Source: Wenzhouxiangellaceae bacterium (GTDB lineage: Bacteria > Pseudomonadota > Gammaproteobacteria > Xanthomonadales > Wenzhouxiangellaceae). From it: 32,931 nucleotides of DNA. Position numbers and translations under genes: made by a program. The stretch lies in NCBI GenBank assembly GCA_007135395.1, contig SLIZ01000234.1, positions 1 to 32,931 on the forward strand, in the 5' to 3' direction. Under the pieces are notes generated by a model. The model did no database searches. It was not told where the DNA came from and saw only the letters and a program-made list of their open reading frames with translations. Below are positions 16,550 to 20,726 of this stretch, piece by piece. Within the stretch, counting starts at the first letter, position 1. The number at the start of each line of letters is the position of its first letter.

Positions 16550-17218
16550 TTAACGTTCGCCTCGGCCGGTCATCCCGGCCCTGGCCACTTCCTCGGCAAA
16601 GGTATCCGGGGTATCCCGGTCTTCAAGCGCTTTCCAGCGATTGACGATGTTGCAGAAAAGCTCTGCCGTGCGCTCGGTGTCGTAGCGGGCCGAGTGGGCT
16701 TCCGACTGGTCCCAGGAAAGCCCGGCGGCAGTCACTGCCCGGGCCAGCACGGTCTGGCCGTAGGCCAGACCACCCAGGGTGACCGTGTCGAAGGTGGAAA
16801 AAAGGTGGAAGGGGTTGCGCTTGTAGCCGGTTCGCTCCACCGCTGCGTTGACAAAGGCCAGGTCGAACGACGGGTTGTGACCGACCAGTATTGCCCGCTG
16901 GCAGCCGGTTGACTTGAGTGCCTTGCGTACCGGCTGGAAGACATCTCTCAAGGCCACTGATTCATCCACTGCCGGCCGGAAGGGATGATCCGGACGGATG
17001 CCGTTTACTTCCATGGACTTGGGATCCATGTTGGCGCCTTCAAAGGGAGCAACATGGCGCATGATCAGGTCGCCGGGACGAATCCAGCCGTCGGTGTCCA
17101 TCTCGATGATGCACGCGGCCAGCTCCAGAAGGGCATCGGCCCTGGGATTGAAACCGCCGGTTTCCACGTCCACGACCACCGGGAGGAAGCCGCGAAAACG
17201 TTGAGCGATGGCTTTCAT
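16550..17218 (-). CDS. rnt: Ribonuclease T
   Basis: RNase T is a 3'-to-5' exoribonuclease that trims tRNA, 5S and 23S rNA 3' ends. The 222-residue protein is a DEDDh exonuclease. Asp17 and Glu19 are in [12 protein letters not shown], Asp119 is in [11 protein letters not shown], and His175 and Asp180 are in [17 protein letters not shown]. The overall pattern, including the C-terminal segment, matches RNase T more closely than the DnaQ epsilon subunit. It starts 42 bases after hvfC on the same strand, so it may share the transcript or use a promoter I could not identify. Confidence 0.93.
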
Positions 17219-17260: not shown

Positions 17261-18076
17261 TCAACTGTCGGGCCGGCCAACGGCCGGTGCGGGCGCGGTG
17301 CCCAGCAGGATATCCCGTTGTCGGAAAGCCTCCAGGATATCCCGGCCGCCCTGAATGACTGTTTCGTCCCCGGAGCGCCCCAGTTGCCCCGCGATATCCT
17401 GAATCTGCTCCAGTCCGCTGCGGTGATCTGCATCGCGCAACTGGACGAACAGGCGGGCCGAGACCGGGTTGAGAAGGTAAAAGCCCACCGTGTCATCGCG
17501 CTTTCGGTAAAGCAGCAGATGGGTGGGATCCTTGCCGCCCGCTTCGGGCGTGAAGCCCGGGCGAATTCGGTGGACCGGATACTCGAAGGATTCAAGCCAG
17601 GCCAGGGGTGAGACCACCGGGGGGTGGGCGAATATATCCCCTTCCGGGTCGGCGGGGATTGAATCCAGGTCCGTCTCGTCCAGTCCCAGGGCTGTTTCCA
17701 GCCATTCATACCGGGCCAGTTCGGCCAGAAAGGGCGGGTCGTCGACGCCGGAATCCCGGCGGGTGGAAAGAAACCGGAGAAACTCCCGGGGCAGTTCGGT
17801 AAACATGGGGGTCCGGGCCCGATGGTCGGTCATGAAGCCACGAACCAGCGCTTCCCAGGCATCGTCATCGTGAATGCGCCGGGTGACGGGAAAACTGCGA
17901 CGAAACAGTCCCTCCAGGTTGCGAAAGAACAGATCCCGGTAAATGGCCATGCGCCGGTCTTCCAGGCCTTCCGGTGGCTCCACGGCCCCGGGGTCGCGGA
18001 TATAGCCGGCGAATCGGGCCTGGAGCCTGGCCAGGGACTCAGGTGGCTTCTTGGCGGGTTGCTTGCGGTCGTTCAT
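17261..18076 (-). CDS. hvfC: HvfC/BufC-like partner protein (DUF2063) of the DUF692 oxidase
   Basis: A 271-residue protein whose N-terminal part (about residues 12-110) matches the DUF2063 family: [15 protein letters not shown], then [17 protein letters not shown] and FPVTRRI. Members form a complex with DUF692 multinuclear iron oxidases and help them bind their precursor peptide. The C-terminal half holds a second domain with [12 protein letters not shown] and [18 protein letters not shown], as in HvfC-type partners. The ATG at 18076 overlaps the end of the oxidase gene by 38 bases, implying coupled translation. It is the last gene of the precursor-oxidase-partner order. Confidence 0.88.
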
Positions 18077-18905
18077 GGCGTTTCTGAATGGCCCGGATGG
18101 TTTCGACTTCGGCCAGAAGCTCGGGCACCGGTGGAAAATTGAAGTCCCTTTCCAGCAATGTGGGAAGGGGGCCGAACCGGGCATAGGCATGGTCCAGGAG
18201 ATTCCATACCGGATCGATCACTGCAGCGCCGTGGGTATCGACAAGCAGATCCTCGGCCTCCTTGTAATGGCCGGCGATGTGGACGTAGGCGATGCGCTCG
18301 GCGGGCAGTGCATCAATGAACTGTTCTGGATCGTAGCCGTGATTGGTGCTGTTGACGTAGACGTTGTTGACGTCCAGCAGGAGATCGCAATCGGCCGCAT
18401 CAAGCACGCCGAGTACGAAGTCCAGCTCGCTCATCTCCTGGCCCGGCGCGGCGTAGTAGGAGATATTCTCCACGGCCAGCCGGCGGCCGGTGATCTCCTG
18501 GGCCTGGCGTATTCTGCCGGCAACCCAGTCGACGGCCTCCCCGGTAAACGGGATGGGCATGAGATCGTACATATGGCCGTGCTCGGAACAGTAGCTGAGA
18601 TGTTCCGAGTAGCACCGGACCTGGTGTTCATCCAGGAACCGGCGGACCCTTCGGAGAAACGTCTCGTCCAGGGGCTCCGGTGCTCCAAGGGACAGGGAAA
18701 GGCCGTGGCAGACCAGGGGGAAGCGCTCGGCATATTCGCCCAGCGCCTTGCCCAGCCGGCCGCCAACCCCGATCCAGTTCTCCGGGGCCAGTTCCATGAA
18801 GCCGACTTGCGACAGGTCATGCTCGCCAAGCGGGCCCAGGAGGGCCCGCCTGAGTCCAAGCCCGGCCCCTTCAATCGGGGCCGGAATGCCAGGCCGTTTG
18901 CTCAT
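18039..18905 (-). CDS. hvfB: HvfB/BufB-like multinuclear non-heme iron oxidase (MNIO, DUF692)
   Basis: A 288-residue TIM-barrel oxidase of the DUF692/UPF0276 family, which modifies cysteines of ribosomally made peptides using iron and oxygen. Likely metal ligands are all present: His68 (CHGLSLSLG), Glu101/His102 (SEHLSY), Glu146-Asn147 (VENISYY), Asp179 and Asn181 (DVNNVYVN), His209 and His213 (VHIAGH), Asp223 and His225 (DTHG), and Glu252 (LERDFNF). It begins nine bases after the precursor gene with no clear ribosome site, so its translation is probably coupled to the precursor. The neighbouring EGKCG precursor places it in the HvfB subgroup. Confidence 0.93.
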
Positions 18906-18914
18906 GAAGGATTA

Positions 18915-19256
18915 TCAGCTGCCGCAGCGACCTTCCCCGCACTTGCCTTCACCTTCCTTGTCATCGTCCTCATCACCTTCGTTGCCGCACTTGCCTTCGC
19001 CACACTTTCCTTCCCCGCACTTTCCTTCCCCGCACTTGCCTTCACTTTCCTTGTCGTCCTTCTTGTCCTTTTCTTCGTCGTTTCCGCAACGGCCTTCACC
19101 GCAATTGCCCTCGGCGCCGGCAATTTCATAGCCGGTGCCCAGGTCTTCGGCCTGGAAAGGGTTGTCGCTGGTGTTGGCAAACGTCGAAAGGGAAAACGAA
19201 GCTGCAGCCAGTGTTCCAATGGCGGTAACGAGGTGCTTCTTTCTGGTCGTGGTCAT
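18915..19256 (-). CDS. hvfA: HvfA-type RiPP precursor with eight EGxCG motifs (secreted, putative copper-binding peptide)
   Basis: A 113-residue precursor. Residues 1-27 form a signal peptide (basic start, hydrophobic core, likely cleavage after STFA). A spacer NPFQAEDLGTGYEIAG follows, then eight pentapeptides EG[K/R/N]CG: 49-58 (EGNCG, EGRCG), 72-91 (EGKCG four times) and 103-112 (EGKCG, EGRCG), separated by Lys/Glu/Asp linkers. The only cysteines are those eight (52, 57, 75, 80, 85, 90, 106, 111). In Haemophilus HvfA, such cysteines are converted by the oxidase into copper-binding groups. The ATG at 19256 has an excellent AGGAG site six to eight bases upstream; an earlier in-frame ATG at 19328 lacks a signal peptide. 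Confidence 0.9.
   Translation of the reverse strand: MTTTRKKHLVTAIGTLAAASFSLSTFANTSDNPFQAEDLGTGYEIAGAEGNCGEGRCGNDEEKDKKDDKESEGKCGEGKCGEGKCGEGKCGNEGDEDDDKEGEGKCGEGRCGS
18984..19043 (-). repeat. Four 15-bp tandem repeats encoding EGKCG
   Basis: Four consecutive 15-base units read GAAGG(C/A)AAGTG(C/T)GG(C/G) on the minus strand, each coding Glu-Gly-Lys-Cys-Gly. The units differ only at third codon positions. This shows expansion of the core motif by tandem duplication with selection on the peptide. Confidence 0.9.
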
Positions 19257-19338
19257 GGATCTTCTCCTGATGGTTGGCGGATCCCCTGTGGAAATCCGAC
19301 ATGAAACGGACTGGATTGGTTCGCACAACCCTACTAGA

Positions 19339-19355
19339 TAACCCGGGCCGGGTTA
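19339..19355. repeat. Perfect 17-base palindrome upstream of hvfA
   Basis: TAACCCGG and CCGGGTTA form an 8-bp perfect inverted repeat around one base, in the 115-base gap between the nth stop and hvfA start. No T run follows on the minus strand, so a terminator for nth is doubtful. It could be an operator for the hvf genes. I found no convincing -35/-10 or ECF-type promoter beside it. Confidence 0.5.
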
Positions 19356-19371: not shown

Positions 19372-20034
19372 TCAGGTTTCGGGTTTCAGGGTGCCAGGAT
19401 CGGGCAGTTGCTTGTCCGGGAAACGGCACAGGTCGGTAATCGGGCACTGACCGCACAAAGGCTTGCGTGCCTTGCAGGTGTAACGGCCATGCAGGATCAG
19501 CCAGTGGTGGGCATGACGCAGATAGGCCCGGGGTACCCGCTTGAGCAGCCTTTTTTCCACCTCCAGGGGGGTCTTGCCCGGTGCCAGGCCGGTGCGGTTG
19601 GAGACCCGGAAGATGTGGGTGTCCACGGCCATGGTTTCGTGGCCGAATGCGGTATTGAGAACCACGTTGGCCGTCTTGCGGCCCACGCCGGGCAGGGCTT
19701 CCAGGGATTTTCGGTTCTCGGGCACCCGGCCCTGGTGCTGCTCGACCAGAATCGAGCAGGTCTTGATGATATTGGCCGCTTTGGAATTGTAAAGGCCGAT
19801 GGTCTGGATGTACTCCTTCAGGCCGACTTCGCCCAGTTCCAGGATGGCCTCGGGGGTGTTGGCTACGGGAAACAGGCGCCGGGTGGCCTTGTTGACACCC
19901 ACATCGGTGGCCTGGGCGGACAGGATGACGGCGATGAGCAGTTCGAAGGGGCTGTCATATTCGAGCTCGGTTTCCGGGGCCGGATTGAGATCCGACAGCC
20001 GTCTGAACATTTCTTCCCGGTCGGCGGGCCTCAT
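19372..20034 (-). CDS. nth: Endonuclease III
   Basis: A DNA glycosylase/AP lyase that removes oxidised pyrimidines in base excision repair. The 220-residue protein has the helix-hairpin-helix [11 protein letters not shown] with catalytic Lys120, and Asp138 in VDTHIFRV, at the same numbers as in E. coli. The C-terminal [4Fe-4S] site follows C-x6-C-x2-C-x5-C ([17 protein letters not shown]). The ATG at 20034 overlaps the rsxE stop by four bases (ATGA); a longer upstream reading frame is not supported by the family. The rsxE-nth coupling is conserved in many gammaproteobacteria. Confidence 0.97.
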
Positions 20035-20726
20035 GCCGGCACACCCGCCCGGGATTGATCCGGTTGATTGCCGATTGCCGGGGACGGACGGGCTCGCAGG
20101 TTGATGGCCTGGCGCACGGCCACCATCAGCCCCAGGGCGATGAAGGCGCCGGGGGGCAAAATCGCCAGGAGAAAACTCCAGTCCCGGGGCAGCAGTTGCC
20201 ATTCGAGCCCGGCAAAGGCCTCGCCCAGCAAAAGGTGCATATCCGAAAACAGGGTTCCGCTGCCGGCCAGTTCCCGTATCGAGCCCAGGACGATCAGGAC
20301 CAGGGCAAATCCGATGCCCTGGGCAAGTCCGTCGGAGACCGAGGCCGAGACCGTCTGACGCGACGCAAAGGCTTCTGCCCGGGCGATGATGGTGCAGTTG
20401 GTGACAATCAGGGGAATGAAAATTCCAAGGCTCCGGCTCAGGCCGGGAAAAAAGGCCTGCAGGATGAGATCCACGGCGGTGACCGTGGCGGCAATGACCA
20501 TTACGAAGGCCGGAATCCGGATTTCAGGGCGCAGGAAACGGCGGATCAGGGATACCGTGGTGTTGCTGACCACCAGCACCAGCAGGGTGGCCAGGCCCAG
20601 CCCCAGGCCGTTGACCGTGGTTGTCGAGACGGCCAGCAGGGGGCAAAGTCCGAGCAGCTGTACCAGCCCCGGGTTGTTGTGCCAGAGGCCTTCACGCCAG
20701 ATTGTGCCTTGATTCGGTTCGGCCAC
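20031..20726 (-). CDS. rsxE: Electron transport complex subunit RsxE/RnfE
   Basis: RsxE is a six-helix membrane subunit of the Rnf/Rsx complex, which moves electrons between NADH and ferredoxin coupled to an ion gradient (or reduces SoxR in E. coli). The 231-residue protein has the conserved [33 protein letters not shown] and [12 protein letters not shown] segments, with the cysteine-bearing helices typical of RsxE. It normally ends the rsxABCDGE set, but here the gene before it is phaC, 28 bases upstream. The other subunits are absent from the window, so its function here is uncertain. Confidence 0.93.

Follow-up and report, generated by a model that had tools for sequence, protein, structure and literature searches.

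The 32,931-nt stretch of DNA analyzed here (the window; contig SLIZ01000234.1 of a Wenzhouxiangellaceae bacterium) carries a three-gene cassette that, with a probability of roughly 0.88, is a captophorin operon of the EGKCG (oxazolin/fontiphorin-like) type making a Cu(I)-binding 5-thiooxazole peptide. At the locus itself, this reading draws on gene content, family membership, intact catalytic and selectivity residues, a signal peptide recognized by inspection and conservation across relatives; for chemistry, copper binding, export and physiological role, it draws on characterized homologs. The cassette is a sound but unexceptional example of a RiPP class that is large and already described.

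Organization of the cassette and its precursor

The genes for the precursor, the oxidase and its partner lie in this order on the minus strand (Table 1). A gap of 9 nt separates the precursor stop from the oxidase start, and the oxidase gene shares 38 nt with the partner gene, whose start codon is an inferred one; this spacing fits a single operon. Related loci were collected by scanning GTDB genomes with the window oxidase, which yielded 80 loci, the best of them from Wenzhouxiangella and other Lysobacterales. The order precursor, MNIO, partner recurs in most related loci examined, and many Lysobacterales relatives keep the longer order of nth, precursor, oxidase, partner and rnt that is found in the window. 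Within the limited flanks of the 80 loci, 27 had a detected nth and 29 a detected rnt. From the conserved nth-hvfABC-rnt setting, the cassette looks vertically inherited, and the same setting points to a role that is inherited and housekeeping-like, not to a mobile accessory.

Table 1. Positions of the cassette genes, their neighbors and associated elements in the window.
Feature	Position	Strand	Remarks
rnt (RNase T)	16550-17218	-	direct flank of cassette
hvfC-like partner (DUF2063 + NGO1945_C, PME type 1)	17261-18076	-	271 aa; NF050145; relative of 3DEE
hvfB-like MNIO (DUF692) oxidase	18039-18905	-	288 aa; NF003818, PF05114; relative of 3BWW
hvfA-like precursor gene	18915-19256	-	113 aa; scored against NF050137 and NF050188
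NPFxAxxLxxGYxxA-like segment of precursor	19119-19163	-	between signal peptide and first motif
Possible leader hairpin, CGGATTTCC-ACA-GGGGATCCG	19278-19298	-	9 bp; 22-42 nt upstream of precursor start; z -1.2
Perfect 17-nt palindrome, TAACCCGGCCCGGGTTA	19339-19355	.	between nth and precursor; read directly
nth (endonuclease III)	19372-20202	-	direct flank of cassette

The precursor contains eight EG[K/R/N]CG motifs and eight cysteines in total, all of them within the motifs, which run EGNCG and EGRCG, then four copies of EGKCG, then EGKCG and EGRCG (blocks of 2+4+2). Its N-terminal sequence reads MTTTRKKHLVTAIGTLAAASFSLSTFA followed by NTSDNPFQAEDLGTGYEIAGA, after which come the eight motifs; by inspection, approximately residues 1-27 form a Sec-type signal peptide with an RKK n-region, a hydrophobic core and an STFA end. 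Synonymous codons vary among the repeats (GGC/GGA/GGT and TGC/TGT), which argues that the repeats are kept at the protein level and do not reflect recent DNA slippage. The precursor passed the cut-off of the HvfA family model for the repeat domain (NF050137; 52.7 bits, cut-off 19.5) and fell below that of the HvfA equivalog (NF050188; 43.9 bits, cut-off 95), so that it need not have precisely the Haemophilus function. The NPFxAxxLxxGYxxA-like segment is conserved in the precursors of most relatives and could be a candidate recognition site for the partner.

Oxidase active site and predicted chemistry

The oxidase passed the HvfB model (NF003818; 432 bits, cut-off 360), matched PF05114 with 344 bits and has 3BWW as a solved relative (E 8e-72). 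The partner passed the HvfC model (NF050145; 266.5 bits, cut-off 142), also matches PF09836 and PF22106 (DUF2063/RRE, PME1) and has 3DEE as a solved relative. Both structures have been named as members of the captophorin/HvfABC system (PMC12668002). The iron ligands of VcMbnB (His55, His91, Glu135, Asp165, Asn168, His194, Asp209, and Glu238; PMC8888699) and the essential HvfB residues N175/D242/H244 (PMC13419390) have their counterparts in H67, H102, E146, D178, N181, H209, D223/H225, and E252 of the window oxidase. In FonB, D249 is the catalytic base, and R15, R16, and F250 are tied to EGKCG selectivity (PMC12668002); the corresponding residues in the window are D254 and R19, R20, and F255, respectively. 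These correspondences were set by motif and spacing in alignments rather than by structure. In 110 aligned oxidases, the ligand, base and selectivity positions show conservation of 97% or more, and they line up with 3BWW. Sequence, family models and active-site residues together back the initial annotation in placing the cassette in an HvfABC-type copper-peptide family, with a precursor made of a signal peptide and eight motifs without further cysteine, an intact DUF692 oxidase having all its ligands, and a DUF2063 partner gene.

An oxazolone/thioamide was the first assignment for the Haemophilus product, which two groups have since reassigned to 5-thiooxazole (PMC12668002; PMC13419390). The initial annotation was right as to family and needs updating as to the chemistry, and one modified ring per cysteine (-4 Da) is to be expected. 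FonBC, HvfBC, and NgoBC make 5-thiooxazole on EGKCG peptides, and their products bind copper (PMC12668002); by analogy, the product of the window would carry 5-thiooxazoles and bind Cu(I). In such a pathway, the HvfC partner would present the precursor, in the cytoplasm, to the mixed-valent di-iron site of HvfB, which would bind each motif cysteine via its thiolate and use O2 in a four-electron oxidation to form 5-thiooxazole from the cysteine and the preceding residue. Moving along the repeats, HvfB could install up to eight rings (-32 Da); the unmodified mature peptide has a calculated average mass of 8861 Da. Once modified, the peptide would be exported by Sec and lose its signal peptide. 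In the periplasm or outside, its thiol-bearing rings would then bind Cu(I), the most likely function being the buffering of excess copper.

A less likely alternative is that the same chemistry serves a role other than excess-copper buffering, such as acquiring copper, handling another soft metal or countering oxidative stress. Clusters of this type have been linked to several stresses and, in Haemophilus, to virulence (PMC12668002; PMC13419390), and the neighborhood of the cassette genes showed no copper-specific regulator. However, Cu(I) is bound by the characterized members, and under copper stress growth is better with bufferins (PMC12452194). Buffering of excess copper is the role that we favor, although support for EGKCG peptides acting on copper in their native hosts is still thin.

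Variation among related loci

An EGxCG-type precursor was recognized beside the oxidase in 67 of the 80 loci, on which the motif statistics rest. These 67 precursors show more than 40 kinds of block pattern, including 3+4+3, 4+4, 2+2+2, and 8+2, and the 43 genomes of the taxonomic family to which the window belongs contribute patterns such as 2+3+2, 2+2+3, 4+3, 3+5, and 4+6. Although 2+4+2 was not seen again among the relatives' precursors, block patterns differ even among near relatives, which rules it out as a special architecture; it represents one draw from a character that varies freely. In the Wenzhouxiangella lineage, linkers of the acidic/Lys kind are the usual ones. At position 3 of the 440 motifs, K (250) is followed by S (94), A (57), T (13), E (8), N (6), R (6), Q (5), and G (1), so that N and R, each recurring six times, are ruled out as special variants. 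The grouping, the linkers and the EGNCG and EGRCG variants, all of which had been considered unusual, are ordinary within this family, and R at position 3 is accepted by FonBC (PMC12668002). Close relatives differ freely in motif number, grouping and the residue before the cysteine, whereas their oxidase active site is fixed, a combination that supports loose, repeat-by-repeat modification. In eight precursors from Tahibacter, Dokdonella and relatives (L015, L023, L024, L034, L035, L044, L047, and L063), EF-hand-like DxNxDG stretches lie between EGxCG blocks and not only after them; EF-hands have been described as fused to the C-terminus (PMC12452194).

In vitro, a peptide with two repeats was modified by FonBC whereas one with a single repeat was not; A, R, and T were tolerated at position 3, and F and E were processed poorly (PMC12668002). 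Every motif of the window sits in a block of at least two repeats, matching this minimal substrate, and since FonBC accepts R, the EGRCG motifs would be expected to be modified; the EGNCG motif would probably be modified too. Partial modification, with free thiols left in the EGNCG motif or in the end blocks, is an improbable alternative. It gains from the drop in FonBC turnover with F or E and from the absence of Asn among the reported single variants assayed at position 3 (PMC12668002), and loses from the acceptance of A, R, and T and from relatives in which S, A, or N predominates at this position and whose oxidases share the same active-site residues.

The initial annotation was right that a DoxX-like gene is missing, while its view of this absence as unusual, and the name HvfD, did not hold; the DoxX-like gene of the Haemophilus oxazolin cluster is named HvfX (PMC13419390). 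In the source genome (271 contigs, ~92% complete), no match to DoxX (PF07681) was found in the window or elsewhere, nor was a second MNIO or precursor. Of 36 MNIO loci of the window's taxonomic family, 17 have DoxX at a distance of no more than 5 kb from the oxidase, and the other 19, which include the window and some loci near contig ends, have no adjacent DoxX. One of these 19 belongs to a single-contig genome (G037) with no DoxX anywhere, and the biochemically proven fonABC likewise has none (PMC12668002). DoxX is optional in the wider HvfABC family.

Some oxidase loci have no recognizable adjoining partner: L118 (G036), L126 and L132 (both G028), L130 (G018), and L113 (G014). The single DUF2063 gene of each of these genomes sits elsewhere. 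DoxX directly follows the oxidase in L118 and is next to it in L126, and in L113 an 895-aa protein is encoded between the two.

The region between nth and the precursor holds a palindrome (Table 1), possibly a terminator-like stem without a T run, or an operator. Precursor leaders proved more structured than control leaders: at positions -55 to -15, they had a mean z of -1.08 (n=74) vs. -0.24 for other genes of the same loci (n=71), with z below -1.5 in 41 and 13% of leaders, respectively, a comparison that carries no formal probability because the leader sequences are related. Ten Wenzhouxiangella relatives (L004-L010, L117, L119, and L120), all without adjacent DoxX, share a promoter-like TTTAAC...TGCTAG and, just downstream of it, a hairpin in which ATCAAG is invariant; a by-eye search of the relatives' leaders for an ECF-type promoter upstream of the precursor found nothing shared. 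This hairpin covaries, with two pairs changed on both sides and eight compensated cells, the ten relatives falling into two groups so that few independent events lie behind the count, and 91.7% of its cells are paired vs. 26.7-48.3% in slid controls. The ATCAAG version is absent from the window, whose own hairpin differs and has a z of only -1.2, so that nothing is claimed for it. No known RNA family was detected in the window at gathering thresholds. We consider it unlikely that a structured mRNA leader controls peptide production in the captophorin operons of this group, with a distinct promoter/leader type in the DoxX-less cassettes and the possible hairpin of Table 1 as the window's version.

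Comparison with characterized systems

That the oxidase is a methanobactin-type enzyme forming oxazolone/thioamide groups for copper uptake is highly improbable: fold and iron ligands are the same, but the MbnB model scored 43 bits, far below its cut-off of 325 (the ApyH and ChrH models likewise fell far below theirs), the partner is of the DUF2063/PME1 kind, the R/R/F residues of EGKCG-type enzymes are present, and the Haemophilus product is now a thiooxazole (PMC12668002). Judged by sequence, the cassette belongs instead to the EGKCG branch of captophorins, together with oxazolin, fontiphorin and gonophorin.

Like fonABC of Fontimonas thermophila (fontiphorin, a captophorin; PMC12668002), the cassette consists of only three genes, with a multi-motif EGKCG precursor, a PME1 partner and no DoxX, and its MNIO has the equivalents of R15/R16/D249/F250 of FonB. 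In contrast to the window's eight motifs, the fon precursor has seven, and its chemistry is experimentally proven, whereas that of the window is predicted. With hvfABC(X) of nontypeable Haemophilus influenzae (oxazolin; PMC13419390), the cassette shares a signal-peptide precursor, paired EGKCG motifs and the HvfB and HvfC families; in Haemophilus, the AEGKCGEGKCG pairs number three and a DoxX-like hvfX lies next to the other genes. The Caulobacter bufferins Buf1 and Buf2 (PMC12452194), which are thiooxazole peptides associated with copper, have related MNIO and partner families. Unlike the window precursor, however, theirs are of the DUF2282 or 6/12-Cys type, and the window oxidase is below the BufB cut-off (NF050167; 262.8 bits, cut-off 310). 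The Buf_EGKCG/oxazolin family of a recent survey (~2,000 proteins; PMC12452194) has the same EGKCG repeats, Sec signal, MNIO and DUF2063 partner, with DoxX optional; the strict 17-residue repeat of the survey is not seen in the window precursor, and there is no difference in kind. The cassette adds one natural example to this very common, recently defined RiPP class.
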